Both the position numbers and the translations under genes were made by a program. A stretch of 21,278 nt of DNA, taken from positions 1 through 21,278 of the IMG/VR virus record IMGVR_UViG_3300047550_001806. One strand, written 5' to 3'. Position 1 is the stretch's first letter. Every line of letters starts with the position of its first letter. A model generated the notes under the pieces. That model had not been told where the DNA came from, made no database searches, and was given only the letters and a program-made list of their open reading frames with translations. Positions 1,830-19,649 of this stretch are shown here, piece after piece. The stretch comes from a virus.

Positions 1830-3956
1830 CTATTGAGAGAGTTCGAGCATCAAGGCATCAATGTTTTGCCGGTGCTTCGCACGAGCCTTGCCCGCCGTGC
1901 TGCGAGCGTTCTTCGCCGCCCGTGCTGACTTACAGGTGGGGATACGGCCGTCCTCAATGCCCTCCGAGACGACCACCACGGTATCTACCGGGAGGACATG
2001 CCCCTCGACACCGAGGGGGTATTCACGCTCCACGACCTCTTGCCCCCCCAAGGCTTCGGCCACCACATCGTTGACCTTGCCCGGTCGCCAAGTGGTGAGG
2101 GACACACGCCGGGGGTCGGTCGAAGGGCGAGGGTCGGTCGAAGGGGTCGCACCACTTCCCTGTTCGCCCTCTTCGGGCTCTTGCTTGCCCGACCGCCCGA
2201 GCAGGAAGTTCTGCAAGGCGTAGACCGCCTTCTGCATGGCAGACGGCCCCGTGAGCATCTGTTGCCCACGAACGGGGACTTCACGCCATGCGGCCAAGTC
2301 CACCTCCGCGAACACGTCGCCCACCAAGGCATCCACCTCGTCGGCGGTCGCCGGGCGAACGTCGCCCCCGTGGGCCTCCAAGAGGTCATGCAGAGTGCCG
2401 CCTTCACGGGGCTCCGAGTTCGGCCCCCACACGCAAATCAGGTGGAACTCCGCCGGGGTCGGTGCGACCTTGGCCCACACGAACTCGGTGGTGGCTTCGA
2501 GGCGCCGAAGCGCCATAGCCATGCCGCTCGACCAAACCGAGTCCACAACCCGAATGGAGGCCACCCGGAGGCCAAAATCGTTACGAGAATATATAGAAGA
2601 AGATACCTTATATTCTCGTAACGATTTCTCAGAAGTGAGCCTTCCAAGGTAGTTTTTCAGCCATGCCTTCATGGCGGCTTGGAGGGCGTCCACCATGGTA
2701 GGCCCGCAGGAAGGGCAGCCGAAGTTCCAGCAACCCATCTTGTTGTGGCGCACGACCCCTTGGGTTCGGGGGCCGTTCACCAAGGCCGTCGTGAGCCACG
2801 GGGCACGGTTGCAGGCGAGGGTCCAGGTGGGCCGATAGCTGAACATGGCCTCGGTGGCCACGGCCTTCAGGTGCTCCTCGGCGTCAATGGGGGCCCATTC
2901 CTCAACCACCCCACCGAGCATGGCCTCAACCCCACGGTCCACGGCGGCTTGGTCCACGGCCTCATCCCCCTGCAACCGGCGAAGCTCTTGGACTGCACGG
3001 CCCCGGTCCTCGTTGTCTTCCCGGCGCAGCTCCCTCGGGTCGATGGCGATACCCCCACCGGGGACCGTGGGGGGCTCCACAGGGCCCGGGGGGCGGCCCT
3101 TGGCCGCGACCACGCCCTCGGGCGCGTACAGGCGAACCTTGGCGGCTCCACGGCAGTCTGCGTGGAAGCAGGCCATGGTGGAGGTGTACTTCGTGGACCG
3201 CACCAAGGTCTTGTTGCCGCACTCGGGGCAACGCTGGCGAGCACCCGACGCCGTGTTGATCCCGGCCCACTTCGGGTCCTTGAAGTCAATAGCTGCCCAA
3301 GCCTCCTCGCCCCCGCCTGCACGGCTGCCCTGCATCTCTTGCCACACGGCATGGGGGAGAACGTGCAGCGCCTTGAAGAACTTGTCGAAGGTCACCGCTT
3401 GCAGGGTGTCGGCCCCCGACAAGCACCCCTCCCACCGGTACACGGTCGGCATGATGCCGGGCTTGGCGTAGCGGGAGCCCGGCAGAATGGCGCAGGTCTT
3501 GGGTCCGCGCAGGTCCACGCAGGAGGCGGTCTTGCCGTCTACCTTGCGGAACTCACCCCACATGGGGGCATCTCCACTGGCGTAACCGCCCCGGTCCTCA
3601 CACTTGAAGTAGAGTTGGAGCCCACGCCCGGTCTTGACCGCCGGAATGTAGAGAACGTGCAGGCGCAACTGAAGCCAGCGGAGCACGGCATCCACCTTCG
3701 CCTCGTCGTCTATGTCCACGACGCACAGCCTCCACCCAGGGCCGTCCAAGAGCATGCCGGCGCCGTCGCACCCGTCCTTGGCGAACAGGTTGAACCGGGC
3801 GAGGTCCGTATGGCACGGCTTCGCCCCCCATAGGTGGGCGTATTGCACGCCGGGGCACGGCTTCCGGTCAAGCAGGGGGACTACGGTTGCCCGGCCCTCG
3901 GCCCATTCAAGGGCTTCGTGGTAGCGTGTCGCACCGGTCACAGTTATAGTGGCCAT
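1830..3956 (-). CDS. Primase-polymerase-type replication protein
   Basis: This encodes a 708-residue protein that probably primes phage DNA synthesis. The first 200 residues look like a bifunctional primase-polymerase (PrimPol/AEP) domain. They contain VVDIDDE at 79-85, with catalytic-type acidic residues D81 and D83, GRGLQLYF at 110-117, and a C-V-D-L-R-G...ILPGS stretch at 146-161. A zinc finger follows (C243, C246, C263, H265/C268), then a second cysteine cluster at 409-417 (CWNFGCPSC). No Walker A helicase motif is seen. Residues 432-460 are encoded by the AT-rich palindromic element duplicated near 19.5 kb and look foreign in codon use. The start at 3956 has AGGGAG 6 bases upstream. The upstream in-frame start at 4031 would run through an intrinsic terminator hairpin. 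Primase is the best reading; the function of the C-terminal half is unknown. Confidence 0.75.
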   Translation of the reverse strand: MATITVTGATRYHEALEWAEGRATVVPLLDRKPCPGVQYAHLWGAKPCHTDLARFNLFAKDGCDGAGMLLDGPGWRLCVVDIDDEAKVDAVLRWLQLRLHVLYIPAVKTGRGLQLYFKCEDRGGYASGDAPMWGEFRKVDGKTASCVDLRGPKTCAILPGSRYAKPGIMPTVYRWEGCLSGADTLQAVTFDKFFKALHVLPHAVWQEMQGSRAGGGEEAWAAIDFKDPKWAGINTASGARQRCPECGNKTLVRSTKYTSTMACFHADCRGAAKVRLYAPEGVVAAKGRPPGPVEPPTVPGGGIAIDPRELRREDNEDRGRAVQELRRLQGDEAVDQAAVDRGVEAMLGGVVEEWAPIDAEEHLKAVATEAMFSYRPTWTLACNRAPWLTTALVNGPRTQGVVRHNKMGCWNFGCPSCGPTMVDALQAAMKAWLKNYLGRLTSEKSLREYKVSSSIYSRNDFGLRVASIRVVDSVWSSGMAMALRRLEATTEFVWAKVAPTPAEFHLICVWGPNSEPREGGTLHDLLEAHGGDVRPATADEVDALVGDVFAEVDLAAWREVPVRGQQMLTGPSAMQKAVYALQNFLLGRSGKQEPEEGEQGSGATPSTDPRPSTDPRRVSLTTWRPGKVNDVVAEALGGQEVVEREYPLGVEGHVLPVDTVVVVSEGIEDGRIPTCKSARAAKNARSTAGKARAKHRQNIDALMLELSQ
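2579..2662 (+). repeat. AT-rich palindromic element, copy 1 (inside the primase gene)
   Basis: This 84-base stretch matches 19526-19609 in the same orientation with three mismatches. It has a perfect inverted repeat, here extended to 19 bp (arms 2575-2593 and 2609-2627) around the 15-base loop TAGAAGAAGATACCT. A downstream CTCAGAAGTGAG mini-hairpin and a T5 run follow. Its composition is strongly AT-rich against the GC-rich flanks. All three plus-strand frames contain stops. The minus-strand frame used by the primase is open and adds 28 codons. I infer an inserted, possibly mobile, palindromic repeat. I could not identify a clear target-site duplication. Confidence 0.85.
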
Positions 3957-3992
3957 AGGTGTCTCCCTATTGGTCATTGACGGCACCTTCAG

Positions 3993-4026
3993 CCCCACGT
4001 CGTTTGCAGCGGCGTGGGGTTTTTTT
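3993..4026 (+). terminator. Intrinsic terminator facing the plus strand
   Basis: CCCCACGTCG (3993-4002) can pair with CGGCGTGGGG (4010-4019), with one mismatch and a short loop, and is followed directly by seven T residues (4020-4026). This is the classic rho-independent form on the plus strand. On the minus strand the hairpin lies in the primase leader without a T-run. Transcripts reaching it from the left would be antisense to the whole minus-strand operon. Confidence 0.75.
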
Positions 4027-4048
4027 CGCACCTGCGTGGTGCGTCCAC

Positions 4049-4087: not shown

Positions 4088-4126
4088 CCTATCGAAGACC
4101 CGGACTTCGATAGGTTCGCCTTATGA
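4088..4126. repeat. Palindromic repeat R1
   Basis: The arms CCTATCGAAG (4088-4097) and CTTCGATAGG (4105-4114) are perfectly complementary and separated by 7 bases. They are followed by TTCGCCTTATGA. The same right arm plus this 12-base tail recurs at 4187-4208 and 4544-4565. The symmetry suggests a dimeric protein-binding site or a hairpin. It lies just upstream of the possible primase promoter. Confidence 0.7.
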
Positions 4127-4142
4127 AGCCCTCTCCCGGCCC

Positions 4143-4225
4143 CCCCGGCCCCGAGACTGACAACCTATGCCTATCGAGGCTCAGGTCTTCGATAGGTTCG
4201 CCTTATGATGCCCTTCCACCCTCCG
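4143..4225. repeat. 83-base direct repeat, copy A (contains palindrome R2)
   Basis: This is identical base for base to 4500-4582, offset by 357 bases. It contains the palindrome CCTATCGAGG (4170-4179)/CTTCGATAGG (4187-4196) with one mismatch. Its right end matches the last codons and stop of the minus-strand regulator gene, which lies in copy B. Copy A therefore carries an orphan copy of that gene's 3' end, as if produced by a local duplication. Confidence 0.85.
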
Positions 4226-4244
4226 GGCGGGGGGGGCTGTATGG

Positions 4245-4499: not shown

Positions 4500-4582
4500 C
4501 CCCGGCCCCGAGACTGACAACCTATGCCTATCGAGGCTCAGGTCTTCGATAGGTTCGCCTTATGATGCCCTTCCACCCTCCG
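4500..4582. repeat. 83-base direct repeat, copy B (contains palindrome R3)
   Basis: This is identical to 4143-4225. The palindrome arms are at 4527-4536 and 4544-4553. The copy begins downstream of the minus-strand regulator gene and extends about 22 bases into its 3' end, including the TAA stop. The hairpin just after the stop could end or stabilise that transcript, but no T-run follows. Confidence 0.85.
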
Positions 4583-5267
4583 AGCGCCGGGGGCGGGTGC
4601 TCAGGAGGGAGGGCCGGTCGCGAATGGCGAGGACCACCGGCCCCGACCGACCGAGGCGGCCCCACGCGGTCGACTGCCGGACCCCCACCGCCCGTGCGGC
4701 CTCCGCCGAGTTCCATGTGTCGAGGTAGGCCGTCACGAGGTCGGGCCATGGACTCTCCCCCACCACTCGGGCCCGGTCCCACTTGCCCCCCGAGATGCGA
4801 GCGAAGTTTGCCACCACCGCGAGGTGCTCCTCGGCGCCGTCGAGCATGGCGACCCACCGGGGCTGTACGACCCCGAGCACGCGAGCGCACCACACCCCGT
4901 CTCCCGACCGACCACCCCGTCCGGCCCACTCGTCCGGCCTGCCCCCGTAGGCGAGGGTCAGTACCTCGCGGTCCTGCCGGGGCAGGAGGGTCACGGTTCG
5001 CCAGAAGACAGCATACCAGTCCTCGTCCACACGCCCTCTCGCCCTGCCCCTGGCTGCCTCACCAGGGAGTCCGAGGTAGGTGGGAGGGTCAAGGGTCAGG
5101 GGCCAAGCCGGGGCCGCCCGTAGGCCCACCACGGCCCAACCAAGGGGGTCTGCGCCCCCCCGGCCGAACCCCAACCGGCACCGGTCGGACTTCTCCTCCT
5201 GAGCGACTTCGCACCAATAAGCTTCGGTGTCCTCGGCGGTCCACACCATGCCCGTCTCTTGCTCCAT
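4560..5267 (-). CDS. Helix-turn-helix DNA-binding protein, probable regulator
   Basis: This encodes a 235-residue protein with two DNA-binding-like regions. Residues 94-107 (LLPRQDREVLTLAY) resemble the start of a sigma-factor region 4. Residues 186-206 (SAEAARAVGVRQSTAWGRL) form a convincing helix-turn-helix. A tryptophan-rich middle segment links them. The ATG at 5267 is preferred; a TTG at 5312 would add 15 residues, and neither has a strong ribosome binding site, so the start is uncertain. It is divergent from the terminase operon, and the gap between them carries a tandem TCTCGTAA-type repeat and a TATAAT box, so it could control the late genes. Its last codons and stop lie in an 83-base direct repeat. 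Regulator is inferred from the fold and position; the family is not recognised. Confidence 0.6.
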   Translation of the reverse strand: MEQETGMVWTAEDTEAYWCEVAQEEKSDRCRLGFGRGGADPLGWAVVGLRAAPAWPLTLDPPTYLGLPGEAARGRARGRVDEDWYAVFWRTVTLLPRQDREVLTLAYGGRPDEWAGRGGRSGDGVWCARVLGVVQPRWVAMLDGAEEHLAVVANFARISGGKWDRARVVGESPWPDLVTAYLDTWNSAEAARAVGVRQSTAWGRLGRSGPVVLAIRDRPSLLSTRPRRSEGGRAS

Positions 5268-5375: not shown

Positions 5376-5879
5376 ATGAAGTGCCCCGCCTGTGGTGGCC
5401 CGACAACCGCAGTTCAAACAATTCCGGCCGAGCGCCGGAACGACAACCGGGTGTATCGGGTCCGTCGGTGCAAGGACATACTGTGCTCGACGCCATGCAC
5501 CACGTTGGAGATATTCCATCACGACCTGAAGAAGGCCGATCAAGACCTGAAGGAGGCAGAGCAAGCCAGCCGCAGGCCCCGCCCTCAACCGGCCATCCCT
5601 ATCGCCGCCCCGCCCCCGGCCATGTACGACCTCGAAGGCAACCTTGAGCGTGGCCTCGCCCCCGCCGTGGAGTATGTCATCGACGCTGTTCAGCCCGGCA
5701 CTCACCCTGACAAGGTCAAGCTCGACGCCGCCAAGTGGCTCATTGAGGACCGCCGTCGGTGGCGTATTGCGACCGCCGAGCAGGCTGCTCGTGGAGGGAC
5801 CGAAGTCCCAGCCGACCCCGCCCTCGCGCAGCTCACGAACATCCTGCGGCTGGTACCCGACCCCGAGGCGGTGGCGTGA
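5376..5879 (+). CDS. Probable small terminase subunit with Ogr/Delta-like zinc finger
   Basis: This encodes a 167-residue protein. The N-terminus is a zinc-ribbon with C3, C6, C32 and C37 (plus C41). The spacing CX2C...CX4C recalls the Ogr/Delta phage transcription-activator finger and, less closely, NrdR. After a proline-rich linker (about residues 65-82), residues 88-150 form helices of the type A-V-E-Y-V-I-D...LDAAKWLIEDR, which resemble small terminase subunits. It lies directly upstream of the large terminase, with GTGA overlap, where the small subunit normally sits and recognises phage DNA for packaging. GAGG lies 9 bases before the ATG. The zinc finger would bind the packaging site or act as a late activator. 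The position argument is strong; the domain assignment is from visible motifs only. Confidence 0.6.
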   Translation: MKCPACGGPTTAVQTIPAERRNDNRVYRVRRCKDILCSTPCTTLEIFHHDLKKADQDLKEAEQASRRPRPQPAIPIAAPPPAMYDLEGNLERGLAPAVEYVIDAVQPGTHPDKVKLDAAKWLIEDRRRWRIATAEQAARGGTEVPADPALAQLTNILRLVPDPEAVA

Positions 5880-7432
5880 GAAGCCCTGTTTGGACCCCGC
5901 CGGGCCTGCCCAAGACCATGTTGGCGCCGGTGCAGCGTCTCATTGGGGACCGGGGGCTGTTCTGTCAGCTCTTGCCCGTTACGCACAAGGGCACAAGCAA
6001 GCACACCAAGTTCTCGCCCCTGCCCGCGCAGAAGCTCGTGTGGGACGCCCTGGACCGGTCGAACCGCGTCATTGTGCTCAAGGCCCGGCAGATGGGAGTG
6101 TCCACGGCGGTTAGGGCGTGGCAGTTCCATCGGGTTTTTCAGAGCTTGGACCCGGTCAAGTTCGCCGTGTTGAGCTTCCACCAGCGCTCTGCCACCAACT
6201 TGCGGCGCCTGGACCGTGAGTGGCTCAAGGCCCTCCCCGATGCGTTCCGCCGTGAGCTGCGAGAAGACAGCGCGGCGGACACAATCTTCGACGACACCGG
6301 AGCCGGGCTGTCTGCGTTCACGACCGGCGGACGGGGCGGCACCCGAAGCTTCTCGTTCACCGGTGCCCACCTCTCCGAGTTCGCGTTCTATCAGAACCCC
6401 GACGAAGTGCTGGCGCAGGTCCTCGCGACCGTCGGTGACGGCCCCGTGGTGATTGAGAGCACCGTGAACGTGCCCGGCGATGCGTTCCACCGGCTCATTG
6501 AAGGCAGCCCCGAGAACGGCTGGGAGCTGCTGTTCCTGCCTTGGTTCACGCATCAGGAGTACAGGCACAGCACTCCACCGGACTTCAAGCGCACCTCCGA
6601 GGAGGAGCAGCTTACGAGTCTCTATGGGCTCGACGACCAGCAGCTCATGTGGCGCAGGACCCAGGTCCTGACCCTCGGCCCGCACAAGTTCGCCCGCGAG
6701 TTCCCCGCCTGTATCGACGACTGTTTTGTCGGACGGGAGGGAGGTTGGTTCGAGGAAGAGCTGCTGCGCAACATACATGTGGTGGAGCACCAGCTTCACG
6801 GCCACACGACCGGTCGCGAAATCGAGCGCCCCCAACCTAACGATAAGTACGTCATGGGCGTTGATGTCGGCGGGGGTGTCGGCGGGGACTACTCGGCTCT
6901 CGCAGTGGTGTCAGCGACTACGATGCAGCCGGTCTACGCCGAGCGAAACAACAAGCTCACCCCGCAAGCCTGGGCCCACCGGGTCGTGCAAGTGGCGGCC
7001 CGGTACAACAACGCGCTGGTCCTGACCGAGAGCAACAATCACGGGCACGCGCTCTTGCTTGAGCTTCAGAACTGCCACTACACGAACCTATGGCACTCCC
7101 CACAAGGCAAGCCGTGGGTCACCACCTTGCAGAGCAAGCTCGACGCCCTGAATACACTTCGGGAGAGCTTGCAGGTCGTTAGGGTCATGGACCGCGTGAC
7201 TTGGCTTGAGCTGCGGGCGCTCACCGTCCCGGCCGGCAAGGTCGCCCCCGAGGCCCCCCTTGGAGGCTACGACGACAGTGCGATGGCCCTCGCATTGGCA
7301 TATAGGTGTATGCGCGACGTGCCCCCCTCCTATCGCCACCAGCTTGGTGGTTCAGGTGGTAAAACAAGGGTCGACGATATGCTTGCGGCAAGCCGTGCGC
7401 GGCGTATTCGCAGCGCCGCCCTCCCCTTCTAA
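5876..7432 (+). CDS. terL: Terminase large subunit
   Basis: This encodes the 518-residue DNA packaging motor: an ATPase plus nuclease that docks on the portal. The ATPase shows a Walker A variant KARQMGVST at residues 69-77, a Walker B-like HLSEFAFY at 165-172 with the catalytic-type E168, and the coupling motif IESTVNVPG at 193-201. The nuclease domain shows GVDVGGGVGGDYSA at 328-341 (D330), LTESNNHG at 383-390 (E385) and GGYDDSAMALALA at 463-475 (D466, D467). These are the usual three acidic clusters of a large terminase. The GTG at 5876 overlaps the stop of the previous gene and has GAGG about 8 bases upstream. The in-frame ATG at 5759 lies inside that gene and gives a nonsense lead. The length is typical. 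The stop region is repeated 15 bases downstream. Confidence 0.95.
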   Translation: MRSPVWTPPGLPKTMLAPVQRLIGDRGLFCQLLPVTHKGTSKHTKFSPLPAQKLVWDALDRSNRVIVLKARQMGVSTAVRAWQFHRVFQSLDPVKFAVLSFHQRSATNLRRLDREWLKALPDAFRRELREDSAADTIFDDTGAGLSAFTTGGRGGTRSFSFTGAHLSEFAFYQNPDEVLAQVLATVGDGPVVIESTVNVPGDAFHRLIEGSPENGWELLFLPWFTHQEYRHSTPPDFKRTSEEEQLTSLYGLDDQQLMWRRTQVLTLGPHKFAREFPACIDDCFVGREGGWFEEELLRNIHVVEHQLHGHTTGREIERPQPNDKYVMGVDVGGGVGGDYSALAVVSATTMQPVYAERNNKLTPQAWAHRVVQVAARYNNALVLTESNNHGHALLLELQNCHYTNLWHSPQGKPWVTTLQSKLDALNTLRESLQVVRVMDRVTWLELRALTVPAGKVAPEAPLGGYDDSAMALALAYRCMRDVPPSYRHQLGGSGGKTRVDDMLAASRARRIRSAALPF

Positions 7433-7448
7433 GCCCCCCCCTTCTAAG
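7423..7448 (+). repeat. 15-base tandem repeat spanning the terL stop
   Basis: CCCCTTCTAAG occurs at 7423-7433 and again at 7438-7448, a 15-base period that keeps the frame. It places a second TTC-TAA 15 bases after the true stop. It lies in the 37-base gap before the portal gene. Confidence 0.8.
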
Positions 7449-7469
7449 TTCAGGGAGACTCCCGAGCCC

Positions 7470-9176
7470 ATGCTGACTCCACAACATGTCGCCGAAATTG
7501 TCGCCGGCCATGACCGCTACTTCAGCGACCGACGCGAGGAGCTGCGTGAGGCCCGCCGGCTCTACATGACCGACTTCTGGTCCCGTGAGCAAGGGGAGAG
7601 CCAAGCCGGTGGGCTTCGCACTGAGGTGCCCAAGGCATATGCCGTCGTCGAGAGCTACCTCGGCAGTCTCTATGCCAAGAACCCCGCCGTGTTTGTGCAG
7701 CCTGATGTGCGCGCACGGGGCAATGCAGAAGTGGCCGAGGCCACCGCCAACCTGTACTTGCTGAGCGTGCGCGAGCAGCTTGAGGACGCAACCCGCCTCG
7801 CATTGATCTACCCGTGCTCGTTCATCAAGCTGAGTCCGGTCCCGAGCGTGGACCCACTCAAGCGCGTGGCAGCGGCAGCGCTGCCCCCGTGGGAGGTCAT
7901 TGTTGACGCCACGGCCTGCGCTTGGGAGCAACAGCGCTACGTAGGGCATGTCTACTTGATGCCCCTTCCAGAGGCGACCGAGCGCTACGGCAAGGCCGAG
8001 ACGGACTTCACCCCGCGCAGTTACTCCAAGTGGCTCGACTCTACATGGTCGGCGAGCACCCGCGGGTGGGGCTCGGGGCCCACGGGGGGCAACACCAACA
8101 CTGTGCCGGGAGTCGAGAAGTTCATCAGGGTGGTTGAAATCTACGACCTCCTCGCCGATAAGCTGCTTGTGTGGTCCGAGGACTACTCGGGCGGGCAGCA
8201 GTTCCTCTTCACGGGCGTCAAGGTTCAGGTCGGCGCCCTCCAGCCCACCCCCGAAGAGAAGGAAGAGCCCGAGCTTCAACACGAAACCAGTGGCATCCCC
8301 TACAAGAGCGCATCGGGCAGGCCCGTCGTGCCTATCCTCCCGCTCTACTTCTCTCGTGACCCCGACACCCCGCTCCGTGGATACAGCCTCATTAGCCGGA
8401 GCCGGGATCAGTTCAGAGAACTCAACCTCATGCGCTCCTACCAAGCGCAGGGCGTCCGCCGTATGGCTCGGCAGTGGATGGTCCGGGCGGGCTTCTTGAG
8501 CGAGGACGCTGCGGCCAAAATCACGCAGGGCATCGACGGCGAGATGATTGAGGTCGATGTTGCACCGGGCACCCCGCTCGATGGCAACATCACCCCCGTC
8601 CCGCAGGCGCCCATTCCCGGTGACATTGCAGCCTATGCTCTGACCGTGGACAACGACCTCAAGGACGCGGGCCTGCTTGCCCCCTTCACCCGTGGAGAAG
8701 TCACCAAGAGCACCGCCACCGAGCAACAGCTCCTTGCGGCCTACACGTCGAGCGAAATCGGGCGCATGGCCCGTATCCGAGACGGTGTCATCACCGGGGT
8801 CGCCAGCACCTACAACATCATGTTGAGCGTGGTCTTGGGTGACGAGGCCGAGCCCTTGGCCCTGCCAAACCCGGTCGGCCCGACATTCCTCTCGGCGGAG
8901 GACCTGACCGGGGACTTCTCGTATTGGGCAGTGGATGCGGGCACCACGCCGATGAGCGACCTTGCCCGGCAAGCGTCGCTTGAGAGGCTCGCCCCCCTGC
9001 TGCTTAGTCTCGGGGCTCCCAAGGAGGCCGTCTTGGCCGAGCTTGTGAGGGCCTACCAGTTGCCCGAAGCCTTCGCGAAGGCGGTCGAGCAAGCACAAGC
9101 ACCCGCGAGCGGGCAAGAGCAACCCCCCTCTTCCTCCCCCCTGCCTTCAAGTATGCTTCCCATCACCGGAGTTTGA
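7470..9176 (+). CDS. Portal protein
   Basis: This encodes a 568-residue portal, the dodecameric ring at the capsid vertex through which DNA is packaged and ejected. Evidence is the position directly after the large terminase and before the scaffold, the length, and the sequence style. A helical N-terminus (ARRLYMTDFW) is followed by KAYAVVESYLGSLYAKNP, a typical portal membrane-like helix region. A beta-rich wing with PPWEVIVDAT comes next, then a long helical stem around residues 305-345 (SRSRDQFRELNLMRSYQAQG) and an acidic C-terminus. I start it at the ATG at 7470 because the longer frame to 7206 runs through terL. AGGGAG lies 12 bases upstream, slightly far. The Q/P-rich C-terminal tail is low complexity. 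The stop overlaps a TTG, but the next gene starts at 9179. Confidence 0.88.
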   Translation: MLTPQHVAEIVAGHDRYFSDRREELREARRLYMTDFWSREQGESQAGGLRTEVPKAYAVVESYLGSLYAKNPAVFVQPDVRARGNAEVAEATANLYLLSVREQLEDATRLALIYPCSFIKLSPVPSVDPLKRVAAAALPPWEVIVDATACAWEQQRYVGHVYLMPLPEATERYGKAETDFTPRSYSKWLDSTWSASTRGWGSGPTGGNTNTVPGVEKFIRVVEIYDLLADKLLVWSEDYSGGQQFLFTGVKVQVGALQPTPEEKEEPELQHETSGIPYKSASGRPVVPILPLYFSRDPDTPLRGYSLISRSRDQFRELNLMRSYQAQGVRRMARQWMVRAGFLSEDAAAKITQGIDGEMIEVDVAPGTPLDGNITPVPQAPIPGDIAAYALTVDNDLKDAGLLAPFTRGEVTKSTATEQQLLAAYTSSEIGRMARIRDGVITGVASTYNIMLSVVLGDEAEPLALPNPVGPTFLSAEDLTGDFSYWAVDAGTTPMSDLARQASLERLAPLLLSLGAPKEAVLAELVRAYQLPEAFAKAVEQAQAPASGQEQPPSSSPLPSSMLPITGV

Positions 9177-9178
9177 CC

Positions 9179-9694
9179 ATGCCCCTCACCATGCCTGACA
9201 TGCCTGACATGCCCCAAGACCTTCGGGACGCTGCCGACGCCTCTGACGCTGAGGTCGAGGCCACCCTTGCGGGGCTTATCCCGCCCCCGGAGAAGCCCTA
9301 CAACCCCAAGGTCGTGACCGCACTCGCCAACGCCGTTTCGGCCGTCGCGAAGGTCATGGGGGTCCGCCTGACTCCCGAGTCCTACACCGGGCCGGTCGAG
9401 GAGCTTGACCCGACCCTCGTGCGCTTCCTCGCCATGGCGGACGCCGCCGCCAAGGACTACGGCTCCCCTCTTCCGGTCGCCCTTGAGAACGTGAAGGGCG
9501 ACCGTGAGTTGATTGTTTTGACGGTCTACCTTGACCGCCTCGCCAAGGACGCCGACTTCAAGGCGTTCCTGAACATGCCCATCCCCGAGGAGGAGGGCGA
9601 GGAGACCGAGGTCAAGGTCAAGCCCGGCAACCGCATGTCCGAAGCCAGCGAGGGCGGGAAGGAAGACTTCGACTTCGCCTCCCGCATGCGGTGA
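9179..9694 (+). CDS. Unknown acidic head-region protein
   Basis: I do not recognise this 171-residue protein. It is acidic and helical, beginning with repeated MPDMPDMP (a 9-base tandem repeat ATGCCTGAC), so several ATGs near 9179, 9191, 9200 and 9209 could start it. The first is favoured by GGAG 7 bases upstream. Residues 40-120 are helix-rich without motifs. The tail has a run of glutamates followed by EVKVKPGNR. It lies between the portal and a WYL-like protein, in the head operon. A role in head assembly, for example as a portal-associated or packaging accessory protein, is a guess from position. Confidence 0.6.
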   Translation: MPLTMPDMPDMPQDLRDAADASDAEVEATLAGLIPPPEKPYNPKVVTALANAVSAVAKVMGVRLTPESYTGPVEELDPTLVRFLAMADAAAKDYGSPLPVALENVKGDRELIVLTVYLDRLAKDADFKAFLNMPIPEEEGEETEVKVKPGNRMSEASEGGKEDFDFASRMR

Positions 9695-9698
9695 CACA

Positions 9699-10181
9699 AT
9701 GGCACTCTTCGGCGCCCTCACAAGCGTAGCCAACAAGCTTAAGCAAGCCTTCGGGGTCTCCAAGCCGGCGACGGTCATCCCCAAGGCTCGCGGGCAGTTC
9801 TATCGCACCTATGCGGGGGGCAACGAAGCCAACCTGACGGACGCCATTCAGCGCCGTCAGCCCGTGACGTTCTACTACGACGATAAGTGGCAAGAGGACG
9901 GTGTGCCCGGCAAGGCGGGGCAGCGCATCGGTAACCCTCATGCCATTTGGGTCGGCAGCAACGGCACCAAGTACCTCCACCTGTATGTGGACCCACAGTC
10001 AGCGTCGGCGACAGGAAGCCTGCCTGGCTGGCGCACGTTCATCCTGAGCAGGATACAGAACGTGTCGGTGCTTGAGCTTGGGTCCAGCTTCTTCGGACGC
10101 AAGGTCGAGTTTGTGCAGGCACCGGGCTTCAACCGAGCGTGGTACTCGCGTGTAGGCACGCCCGTAGTCCTCCTCAAGTAA
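9699..10181 (+). CDS. WYL-like domain protein in the head operon
   Basis: This encodes a 160-residue protein whose residues 46-132 follow the WYL domain plan. They run LTDAIQRRQPVTFYYDD (beta strand pair), then a GNPHAIWV...KYLHLYV core at 79-97, then LPGWRTFILSRIQNVSVLE at 108-126 and a following FF. WYL domains bind ligands or nucleic acid and are best known in bacterial transcription regulators and CRISPR or phage-defence regulators. Here there is no helix-turn-helix; the N-terminus is only a short amphipathic helix. It starts 4 bases after the previous stop without a clear ribosome binding site, so it may depend on coupled translation. Alternative reading: a small beta-barrel virion protein that mimics WYL. 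The stop context is tandemly repeated three times. Confidence 0.6.
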   Translation: MALFGALTSVANKLKQAFGVSKPATVIPKARGQFYRTYAGGNEANLTDAIQRRQPVTFYYDDKWQEDGVPGKAGQRIGNPHAIWVGSNGTKYLHLYVDPQSASATGSLPGWRTFILSRIQNVSVLELGSSFFGRKVEFVQAPGFNRAWYSRVGTPVVLLK

Positions 10182-10213
10182 ACCCCCTCAAGTAAACCCC
10201 CTCAAGTAAACCC
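10172..10213 (+). repeat. Three tandem 14-base repeats covering a stop codon
   Basis: CCTCAAGTAAACCC occurs three times in tandem at 10172-10185, 10186-10199 and 10200-10213. The first copy contains the TAA stop of the WYL-like gene, so the stop context is repeated twice in the gap before the scaffold gene. It probably arose by replication slippage. Confidence 0.9.
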
Positions 10214-10226
10214 CGAGGTAACCACC

Positions 10227-11039
10227 ATGGCCGAGCCCAATAGCACCGCTCCCTCCCCGTCCAATTCTGCACCGTCGGTCCCGTCCGTCGCACAGGCGGC
10301 CCTCGACGAGTACAACAGCCGCAACGCGGCAGCCGCCCCCGGCGCCCATGCAGAAGGCGGAGAGGAGGGGGCAGAAGCCCACGCAGGCGAGGGCGAGGGT
10401 GAGCCCCGGGTGCGCAAGCTCTCCTGGAACGACGCGCTCAAGCAGGTCCCCCCGGATGTCCGCGAGCTGATGAAGTCGATGCAGCGGGACTACACCCAGA
10501 AGACGCAGGAGCTGAGCACGCAGCGCAAGGAGTTTCTCCGCGAGCGGGAAGCCCTGCTCAAGGGTCAGCAAGCTCTGCCCAAGGAGCAGCCCGCCCTGCC
10601 CGAGTACGACCCCTTCAACGAGGCGTCTATCAACGCTCGCATTGAAGCCGAGGTCAACAAGCGGCTCAACATGGTCCTTGAGCCCATGAAGCGTGAATAC
10701 GAGGTTATGGCGGCCGAGGAGAGCTACCAGAGCTTCCTGTCGAAGAACCCCGACTTCAAGACCGATAAGGCACTCCGGGCCGAGGTGCAGGCCCTGCTCG
10801 AAGCATCCCCCTCACTCGACCTTGAGACGGCCTACTACGCCGCCAAGGGCAAGCGCGGCCCTCTCGTGCAGCAGGCCGAGAGGGCCGCTGCACAGGCTCG
10901 ACGCACTGCCGACCGTGAGGCCGCTACCCGTGGGACCGCCCTCCCTCGCAAGGGGTCCGGGCTGCCCGTGGCAGGTGACGTCAAGCGCATGTCGAACGCA
11001 GACATTCTCGCCATGGCCCGGGCTCTACAGCGCCGTTGA
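10227..11039 (+). CDS. Scaffolding protein
   Basis: This encodes a 270-residue scaffold that guides capsid assembly and leaves before maturation. It has the expected make-up: a disordered Ala/Ser/Pro and Glu-rich N-terminus (about residues 1-60), then a conserved-looking WNDALKQVPPDVRELMKSM segment at 67-85. A long charged coiled coil follows (about 86-170), then a LETAYYAAKGK motif near residues 199-209, and a basic C-terminal helix that would bind the coat protein. It lies directly before the major capsid gene, as usual. The ATG at 10227 has CCGAGG about 8 bases upstream. It could also be called a capsid assembly protein; no protease is seen in this window. Confidence 0.8.
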   Translation: MAEPNSTAPSPSNSAPSVPSVAQAALDEYNSRNAAAAPGAHAEGGEEGAEAHAGEGEGEPRVRKLSWNDALKQVPPDVRELMKSMQRDYTQKTQELSTQRKEFLREREALLKGQQALPKEQPALPEYDPFNEASINARIEAEVNKRLNMVLEPMKREYEVMAAEESYQSFLSKNPDFKTDKALRAEVQALLEASPSLDLETAYYAAKGKRGPLVQQAERAAAQARRTADREAATRGTALPRKGSGLPVAGDVKRMSNADILAMARALQRR

Positions 11040-11218: not shown

Positions 11219-12229
11219 ATGCGTTCCATTCTCTCGTCCACGCTGCCCCTCCTGCGTGACAAGCTCATCGACAACTCCTTCGTGAGCCATCCCCTGTTCC
11301 GGGCCATTGAAGCCTCGGGCAACCTCGTGAAGATTTCGGGCGGCTCTCGTATCGAGCAGCCGGTCATCTTCGGCGAGCACTCCAGCCTCAGCGTGCTGAG
11401 CAACGGCTTCGAGCCGGTGTCCATGGCCGTGACCGACCCCTTCTACACGGCCAACTTCGAGTGGGCCAACTTCACTCAGCCAATCGTGTTGAGCGCAGTG
11501 GAGAAGGCCGCCAATAAGGGCGACGACGCCATCGTCAACATCCTTGAGGGCAAGATGAAGAACGTCCTCCTCGGGATGAAGAAGGCGGTGAACCAGCAGG
11601 TCATGGTTGGCACCGGGGCGGTGTCCACCCTCCAGACCCTCAACGGCAACGGCACCAGCACCTCTGCCCCCGTCACCACGGGTTGGTTCGAGGCCCTGGC
11701 GAGCACCGCGCAGACCAACACGGTCGGCGGCCTCTCCAAGACCACATACCGCAGCAAGAACTGGTTCAACCAGTGGTATGACAGCGCCGGCAGCTTCGCT
11801 CTCAGCCACCTCGATGAGCTGTTCATCAACTGCCAGACCTACCACCCCGCCGGGAAGACCCCCGACATCATCCTGATGTCCCCGAAGTGCTTCGGTGCCT
11901 TCCAGGCGCTTCAGCAGTCCTCGGTGCAGTACGTGAGTGCTTCCGACCGTGAGTCCCTGGACCGGGACATGGTGGCCATGTGGCGCGGCGCGAAGATTTA
12001 CGTGGACCCCAACCTCGGCTTCACCTCGGCTGGTGGGGCGCCCGTGTCGGCCTACGTGCTGAGCAGCGACCTGTTCCAGCTCTACACCGACACCGACGGT
12101 TGGTTCCACGTGAGCGACCTGATGCCCGTCCCCGGCACCGCGACCGAGGCGGCCATGGTGTTCTGCCGCATGCAGCTCGTGACCGGTCACCTCGCGAGCC
12201 ACGGCATCCTGACCGACGCCGAGGCTTGA
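11219..12229 (+). CDS. Major capsid protein
   Basis: This encodes a 336-residue coat protein. Its position after the scaffold, its own promoter and a good ribosome binding site (AGAGG 7 bases upstream) fit the most abundant virion protein. Recognisable features of the HK97-fold phage coat group are an N-terminal helix (LPLLRDKLIDNSFVSHPLFRA), a GSRIEQPVIFG-type E-loop region around residues 42-52, and a long spine-like helix rich in Ala/Lys (AVEKAANKGDDAIVNILEGK) at 92-111. A P-domain-like segment with DIILMSPKCFGAFQAL at 217-232 and a closing beta-rich A-domain complete it. It has no N-terminal delta domain because the scaffold is separate. The fold assignment is from visible motif style. 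Confidence 0.88.
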   Translation: MRSILSSTLPLLRDKLIDNSFVSHPLFRAIEASGNLVKISGGSRIEQPVIFGEHSSLSVLSNGFEPVSMAVTDPFYTANFEWANFTQPIVLSAVEKAANKGDDAIVNILEGKMKNVLLGMKKAVNQQVMVGTGAVSTLQTLNGNGTSTSAPVTTGWFEALASTAQTNTVGGLSKTTYRSKNWFNQWYDSAGSFALSHLDELFINCQTYHPAGKTPDIILMSPKCFGAFQALQQSSVQYVSASDRESLDRDMVAMWRGAKIYVDPNLGFTSAGGAPVSAYVLSSDLFQLYTDTDGWFHVSDLMPVPGTATEAAMVFCRMQLVTGHLASHGILTDAEA

Positions 12230-18850: not shown

Positions 18851-19543
18851 ATGGACCCCATTACACTGGCCCTCCTCGGAGGGGGACTCGCCAAGGCCGG
18901 GGCGGGCATTGCCTCGGGCATCGGGACAGCGCGTGCCGCCAAGAAGCAGTTCTTGACCCCCGCGGAGGAGCAAGAGCTTGCAGAGCTTGAGGCCCGCAAG
19001 CGTGCGGGCACCCTTGGCCTCACCGAGGGTGACAGAGGCCGGCTTGAGCAGCAGTTCTTGGCGGAACAGGCCGGGGCCCAACGGGAGCTTGAGGCCACGG
19101 CCCTGCAACAGGCCGCTGCCCGTGGCTTGCAGAGCGGTGTCTCCGGAAGGGAACTGTTCCTTCAGGAGCAGGCACAAGCCTCGGCTGAGCGGGGCATGCG
19201 CCAACAGCAGAACCTCGCGCTGCTTGAGGTCGACCGCTCGCAGCGCGAAGCAGAGCTGGCCCGTATCGACGCCATGCGGGCCCAACAGAAGGGTGCCGAG
19301 GCCCAGCGTGCTGCGGGCATTGCCCAAGCCGTATCCCTCGGGCTCGCCGGAGCTGGCGATGTAGCCCTGCAAGCCGCCTCCATGAGGCAGCAGGCCAAGC
19401 TGAACGAGCTTGAAGCAGCCGCCCGTGCAGAGACGGACCAGTCCCTCCTCAACAGGCTCTTGGCCTACCCGGGTGGGGTCACGGGTGGTGGCATCGTGCC
19501 CCCCGTGACCCGCCCCCCTACCGTCCGTTACGAGAATATATAG
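18851..19543 (+). CDS. Coiled-coil internal virion-type protein; stop from palindromic element
   Basis: This encodes a 230-residue, Ala/Gln/Glu-rich helical protein. A glycine-rich hydrophobic N-terminal segment (LALLGGGLAKAGAGIASGIG, residues 5-24) resembles the membrane-active start of phage ejection proteins. A long predicted coiled coil (LEARKRAGTL... to about residue 150) and a second helical region follow. The position after the tail genes is where T7-like phages code internal virion proteins. GGAGG lies 7 bases before the ATG. The last codons YENI and the TAG stop (19541-19543) come from the AT-rich palindromic element. Without it the frame would have continued, so the ancestral C-terminus may be longer. 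Confidence 0.6.
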   Translation: MDPITLALLGGGLAKAGAGIASGIGTARAAKKQFLTPAEEQELAELEARKRAGTLGLTEGDRGRLEQQFLAEQAGAQRELEATALQQAAARGLQSGVSGRELFLQEQAQASAERGMRQQQNLALLEVDRSQREAELARIDAMRAQQKGAEAQRAAGIAQAVSLGLAGAGDVALQAASMRQQAKLNELEAAARAETDQSLLNRLLAYPGGVTGGGIVPPVTRPPTVRYENI

Positions 19544-19609
19544 AAGAAGATACCTTATATTCTCGTAACGATTTCTCAGAAGTGAGCCTTCTAAGATAGT
19601 TTTTGAGCC
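19526..19609 (+). repeat. AT-rich palindromic element, copy 2 (3' end of a virion gene)
   Basis: This is the second copy of the element at 2579-2662, same orientation, three mismatches. The perfect stem is 15 bp here (arms 19526-19540 and 19556-19570) with the same 15-base loop. The loop's first codon is the TAG stop of the upstream gene. Downstream, TCTCAGAAG (19574-19582) pairs with CTTCTAAGA (19588-19596) with one mismatch and is followed by TAG and T5 (19600-19604), which resembles an intrinsic terminator. In copy 1 the two changed bases in that right arm weaken the stem. Confidence 0.85.
19574..19604 (+). terminator. Possible terminator within palindromic element copy 2
   Basis: The 9-bp stem with one mismatch, a 5-base loop (TGAGC), and five T residues three bases after the stem fit a weak rho-independent terminator. 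It lies between the coiled-coil gene and the partial gene at 19650, so it could limit read-through within the late operon. Confidence 0.4.
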
Positions 19610-19649
19610 CTCCCCGACTCTTGGCCCCACCATGCGAGAGGTCCACCAC

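Follow-up and report, generated by a model that had tools for sequence, protein, structure and literature searches.

A predicted HTH-less, single-domain WYL protein with a constant position among the head genes of a large clade of uncultured phages

WYL domains in described systems

In the accessible parts of the literature, the main role of WYL barrels is sensing, within bacterial regulators of damage and defence, a helicase fusion being one exception. As reported in the available portion of PMC9122588, Tyr145, Arg183, Phe185, and Arg189 form the proposed pocket of CapW, whose WYL-triplet Trp lies on the opposite face, tied to the wHTH. The function of PafBC is harmed by mutation of the β-1 Tyr/His, the WYL Tyr, the loop Phe, or the loop arginine pair, with an expression caveat for the loop Phe mutant (accessible sections of PMC6789036). 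According to the part of PMC11804915 at hand, ssDNA binding by PafB requires R211/R214, R181, and Y196. The titles of PDB entries describe DriD and CapW as bound to ssDNA. The residues of the WYL triplet are not highly conserved across the superfamily, as stated in the excerpted text of PMC4012209.

Two further comparisons concern WYL domains in other settings. In Pif1 helicases whose C terminus carries a WYL domain, as in the phage protein described here, the domain stands outside a transcription factor, and that of TePif1 binds ssDNA (as told in the available part of PMC9964779); in these enzymes it is fused to the helicase, whereas the phage WYL protein stands alone. Limnohabitans phage DC31 ORF40 likewise carries a WYL annotation in a phage, but in the part of PMC12195039 available it is listed as an auxiliary metabolic gene. 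No report of a head-operon WYL protein was found among the matches listed in our literature searches (titles, abstract openings, and excerpts), which covered few subscription papers and no bioRxiv preprints, nor in the accessible parts of PMC9503650, PMC12195039, PMC7824862, PMC5512222, PMC6789036, PMC9122588, PMC4012209, PMC6563490, PMC11804915, and PMC9964779.

The window analyzed here, a virus record of 21,278 bases, encodes a 160-residue protein that we predict to be an HTH-less, single-domain WYL protein. It shares with PafBC, DriD, BrxR, and CapW the WYL barrel (Z 9.1-10.1, best chains), the β-1 Tyr, the WYL Tyr, and the R-x-F-x-x-x-R motif. In contrast to the HTH-WYL-WCX regulators, it has no HTH, no WCX, and no W of the WYL triplet, and the equivalent of PafB R211 is missing in 102 of 103 phage proteins. 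Because 41 residues precede and 34 follow the barrel, with no such Pfam match, the phage protein is not a member of that group.

Gene, predicted fold, and cellular relatives

The ORF (9699-10181, + strand) opens with an ATG, and its assignment draws on Pfam, on relatives, and on the predicted structure. Conserved relatives are carried by 73 loci of viral contigs, and the ORF is therefore a real gene. The WYL (Sm-like) barrel core spans residues 42-126 (9822-10076, +); within it the Pfam stretch covers residues 45-123, and structural matches mostly run from residue 39 to 144-154. The basic N-terminal segment, residues 1-41 (9699-9821, +), has a median net charge of +6 over the aligned phage proteins. 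The C-terminal extension, residues 127-160 (10077-10178, +), carries the motif F..APG(Y/W)NP, and part of it, into residue 148, aligns in hhalign with a cellular single-domain WYL family. The Pfam scan and the model gave no HTH, residues 1-41 being modeled mostly at low confidence with one short helix, and neither the scan nor the model showed an effector domain.

Scanned alone, the window protein matches PF13280 with an E of 0.0025 and 18.2 bits, under the curated cut-off of 21.8. A family alignment was built from the window protein and 39 of the 73 viral-contig loci, with near-copies left out, and PF13280 matches 38 of these 40 sequences at E<=1 (best 3e-10). When ten relatives were scanned singly, four exceeded the cut-off (L066, L070, L072, and L073; 33.4-40.4 bits), and the remaining six fell under it (13.0-18.9 bits). 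A PDB sequence search returned nothing convincing, and PHROGs offered no useful family for the protein (best value 0.25 for the window protein; phrog_13105 at 0.0062 in six of the 40 members).

The AlphaFold2 model of the window protein, predicted from the 40-member alignment (pLDDT 76.8, pTM 0.71), shows an N-terminal helix and five strands, as in the Sm-like WYL barrel. Foldseek against the PDB placed PafBC, BrxR, and CapW at the top (E 1.3e-3 to 1.3e-2, probability 1.00). In VIA-align, the top 14 rows are all WYL regulators with Z of 7.1-10.1, including PafBC (10.1), DriD (10.0), BrxR (9.8), and CapW (9.1), and the rows below, with Z near 6, are mainly Sm/Hfq-type barrels. A plain decoration or head-completion barrel, which is absent among the best structural rows, was rejected. 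In a structural search of a viral library, the best match was an uncharacterised 154-residue protein (E 1.6e-4), and a weak match to a TP-84 protein was also obtained.

An earlier note on this DNA had read the ORF as a WYL plan without an HTH. The matches of the relatives to PF13280, the nearness of the model to WYL regulators, and residues 1-41 without an HTH all agree with that reading. The note had looked to a WYL profile match, which most relatives give and four of ten give above the cut-off, but the window protein alone does not reach that level; it had also looked to a structure superposing on a WYL barrel, which the uniformly WYL top rows bear out. The outcome that by the note's own account would have spoken against it, a plain head-completion or decoration barrel lacking any WYL match, was not observed.

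To place the family among cellular proteins, the phage profile was compared with 84,980 species genomes, which gave two loci, L075 and L076, both in Gemmatimonadales MAGs and both encoding small proteins with LPGWRTF and without an HTH. With L075 as the query, matches were found in 26 of 298 genomes from the phylum of the L076 MAG. The resulting cellular single-domain alignment holds 18 proteins, namely L075 and 17 of 20 loci taken from the 26 matches; L256, L262, and L263 were excluded as partial or divergent, and L243 because it duplicates L246. A second set comprised 17 HTH-WYL domain stretches (one a fragment), obtained from 24 motif stretches by removing copies, with motif-less loci dropped. 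By hhalign, the phage family aligns with the cellular single-domain proteins over residues 44-148 (Prob 98.3, E 1.6e-14) and with the HTH-WYL stretches at Prob 91.9 and E 7e-7, and the two cellular sets align with each other at Prob 96.5 and E 8e-10. The best of 50 column shuffles for each comparison reached only E 0.032 (single-domain) and 0.035 (HTH-WYL), and a control comparison of the phage family with the capsid alignment gave Prob 1.1. Collectively, these scores and controls indicate that the phage proteins are a WYL family, closer to the single-domain cellular proteins than to the HTH regulators. We infer a shared ancestry of the phage protein with the HTH-less cellular WYL proteins. 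Both groups have a single barrel, R..(E/N)PH, S.SG.LPGWRTF, and a C-terminal F...P.(Y/F). In contrast to the phage proteins, most of their cellular counterparts are acidic (median pI 5.4, n=18), most have no equivalent of Arg118, and no phage head context was seen for them.

It might be argued that the phage protein is an unrelated small barrel that merely resembles WYL, since the window protein alone scores under the Pfam cut-off, the PDB Foldseek E is only ~1e-3, and, of 15 phage records, PF13280 detects 2 against 7 for the family profile. We regard this as very improbable, given that four relatives pass the cut-off, the hhalign comparisons lie far beyond the shuffles, the 14 best structures are all WYL, and the site residues coincide.

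Two observations were made on the cellular side. A search with L254, one of the single-domain WYL proteins from cells, gave matches at E 4e-5 to 5e-8 in five uncultured phage records of 635-735 kb (LR756501, LR756502, LR756503, LR756504, and LR745206). In the Gemmatimonadales MAGs of L075 and L243, the cellular WYL gene is flanked by ORFs that we take to be purE-like and pyruvate phosphate dikinase-like.

Ligand-site residues and charge

The residues of the ligand site were mapped by motif spacing and by hhalign with HTH-WYL domains, CapW and PafB themselves being outside the alignment. Tyr60 (9876-9878, +), at the β-1 tyrosine position of WYL domains as placed by this hhalign comparison, and Tyr92 (9972-9974, +), the Tyr of the WYL triplet, are present in 103 of 103 distinct phage proteins. 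The β-4/β-5 ligand-site motif, Arg112-x-Phe114-x-x-x-Arg118 (10032-10052, +), is similarly kept, with both arginines in all 103 and Phe114 in 101. The W position of the triplet holds W in 0 of 103 proteins; because the triplet is not strongly conserved in the superfamily (accessible text of PMC4012209), the missing W is not defining. By this mapping, the residue tied to HTH coupling appears to be gone, as is the HTH itself. Residue 115, equivalent to PafB R211, is R in one protein and I or L in 102 of 103. R211 is a ligand feature of PafBC and lies outside the four residues named for CapW. With a hydrophobic residue at this position, the ligand site is mostly, not wholly, kept. The most divergent phage WYL protein (L229 3217-3645, ~30% identity) reads R-x-H-R-V-D-R and has the second loop arginine, and L336 appears to belong to the same branch.

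The phage WYL proteins are uniformly basic, with a pI of 9.8-12.0 in 103 of 103 (median 10.6), whereas the 18 cellular relatives have a pI range of 4.97-10.69 around their acidic median. The retained Tyr/Arg/Phe/Arg positions correspond to the ones that bind ssDNA in PafBC (PMC11804915, part available), which by analogy favors nucleic-acid binding. With most of the binding-site signature kept, the protein probably grips nucleic acid during late infection or head assembly.

Head-operon context and proposed function

The WYL gene lies within a run of head genes, all on the + strand, in the fixed order portal, u173, WYL, scaffold, and major capsid protein. Upstream, TerL is encoded at 5759-7432 (+; Terminase_6C, below cut-off), and the portal ORF spans 7206-9176 (+; phrog_156, E 1.2e-8), with an in-frame ATG at 7470 as the likelier start, as read off the translation. 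Between portal and WYL lies u173 (9173-9694, +), a conserved, acidic, helical protein of 173 residues whose model (pLDDT 83.0) has no clear relative in the PDB (best Z 3.5). Downstream, the scaffold protein is encoded at 10227-11039 (+; phrog_3927, E 4.1e-5); next comes the gene for the major capsid protein (11219-12229, +; phrog_9953, E 1.1e-19). The earlier note had put the gene between portal and scaffold; the position was right, although u173 separates portal from WYL. It had also held that a virion-borne or head-assembly version would be unusual; a head-operon setting is indeed unusual by the literature searched, in whose accessible parts no such WYL protein was found. The interpretation given in the note is supported in part, for the WYL fold, the missing HTH, and this setting. 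By eye, a CCCCTCAAGTAAA-like unit occurs in three near-tandem copies at 10168-10216, across and just past the WYL stop codon.

Adjacency was counted over 139 loci, some of which overlap on one contig. The scaffold gene adjoins the WYL gene in 118 of 118 loci with room, and u173 adjoins it in 128 of 129, at a median of 2 nt from the u173 stop to the WYL start (n=111, range -1 to 137). As a scan with a single u173 protein gave two loci only, u173 was tracked by synteny. In the exception, L115, the sequence ahead of the WYL gene shows no detectable u173 or portal, and relatives of tail genes lie ~3 kb upstream.

The pI of u173 is 4.05-4.62 in 48 of 48 proteins, and together with the adjacency this charge suggests a u173-WYL contact. 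On this evidence, the barrel might serve protein-protein contact only, as an assembly chaperone or connector among u173, portal, and scaffold, with its conserved residues belonging to the fold or interface. The constant company of u173 and scaffold, the pairing of an acidic with a basic protein, and the loss of one ligand arginine are consistent with such a role; the strictly kept Tyr, Arg, Phe, and Arg and the high pI suit nucleic acid better, and we consider a pure contact function doubtful.

To describe the distribution of the gene, capsid sequences were used as anchors. Among the capsid-anchored loci (80 in all), the WYL gene was found in 59 of 59 with >1600 upstream bases. Subsequently, 241 loci with a complete capsid were reduced to 121 distinct capsid sequences, of which 97 have the WYL gene upstream, 7 do not, and 17 are cut off. 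The 7 WYL-less capsids, a sister group reached through a more distant capsid query (L229), form one clade in a quick, unrooted tree (one change, SH-aLRT 99). No WYL match was found anywhere in the available sequence of eight WYL-less records, two of which are 28.9 and 30.4 kb long, and u173 and scaffold are spaced ~35-60 nt apart in six WYL-less loci. The best reading of these sequence data is that the gene was gained or lost once, either direction being compatible with the unrooted tree. With a single WYL-less clade, the gene has been a stable fixture since one event, and this head type can form without it, which argues against a WYL role required for this head type in general. Across these loci, a large clade of uncultured phages keeps the WYL gene at one constant position among its head genes.

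Over 102 loci, the median identity to the window is 70% for portal, 70% for capsid, 61% for WYL, 54% for scaffold, and 48% for u173, so that WYL falls between scaffold and capsid; for TerL it is 53% (76 loci).

Beyond this clade, INPHARED named phages gave no relatives of the window protein, L229, or the portal, and capsid relatives were limited to three records at 22-23% identity. In two of these records, the portal-scaffold slot holds a zinc-ribbon protein (MW202489) or a 127-residue protein without a Pfam match (Mx9). Small proteins of other kinds lie near the portal in phages with a distant capsid relative: in L206, a zinc-ribbon (FmdB-like) protein is encoded at 5491-5904 between portal and p47, and in L208 the ORF at 2911-3171, directly before the portal-like ORF, is presumably GroES-like. 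The L070 query gave 95 INPHARED records, and the ones listed, mycobacteriophage integrases at E 0.03-0.06, were taken as chance.

The late position of the gene is by itself no proof of a structural role. The place in the head operon might reflect late timing only, and the protein could be a late-made nucleic-acid sensor or decoy that targets the host or late gene expression, for instance by sequestering the trigger ligand of WYL regulators in the host (CapW, BrxR, or PafBC among them). Anti-defence genes usually spread patchily, unlike the phage WYL gene. Its fixed place, its presence in all 97 informative capsid contexts outside the WYL-less clade, and its steady conservation therefore make an anti-defence role less likely, and neither an HTH nor an effector domain was seen. 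The ligand site is mostly kept, and according to the available parts of PMC9122588 and PMC11804915, the WYL proteins described there are nucleic-acid sensors in regulators of defence and damage responses. Although we judge it unlikely on the whole, the sensor or decoy still carries considerable weight, since sensing is what WYL proteins are known for and the gene is dispensable for the head type as such.

The reading that we favor, tentatively and at somewhat less than even confidence, is a nucleic-acid-binding WYL protein of the late head operon that acts in packaging or assembly. An HTH-less barrel of cellular type would have retained most of its single-strand nucleic-acid site and turned basic. 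Presumably co-produced with the portal, u173, scaffold, and capsid proteins, it would most likely use the Tyr60/Tyr92/Arg112/Phe114/Arg118 face to bind nucleic acid, either RNA or ssDNA at ends or gaps, and this step would be timed to head assembly or DNA packaging. Its neighbors, perhaps the very acidic u173, may hold it at the procapsid, and it may remain in the virion. Two results stand against this explanation: as mapped, the site is not whole, its R211 equivalent being hydrophobic in nearly all proteins, and the sister clade builds the same head without the gene. A more specific proposal, which we rate as possible rather than probable, is that a WYL sensor barrel was converted into a head component, packaged with the genome or bound to it at the portal or procapsid, with the single-strand site holding a DNA end or RNA. 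If so, it would be the first WYL protein in a virus particle, as far as the literature searches show. A basic, single-domain phage WYL protein fixed among head genes with its site mostly kept suggests that phages reuse the fold in another way, and the assignment gives a name to a conserved but so far nameless protein of this phage lineage, of which our searches found no close cultured relative.

Finally, repeats were observed elsewhere in the window. In the region that separates the head genes from the primase ORF, a 95-nt repeat occurs twice and a 45-nt repeat three times (4088-4132, 4143-4237, and 4500-4594), and Rfam gave no family in the window at the gathering score. An 89-nt direct repeat (94%) is located at 2579-2667 and 19526-19614, one copy sitting inside the primase-polymerase ORF (1830-4031, -). 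This repeat starts as a perfect, AT-rich hairpin, the genome itself being GC-rich, and elsewhere the exact 45-nt hairpin was found only in contig IMGVR_UViG_3300043442_000575, where it occurs twice.
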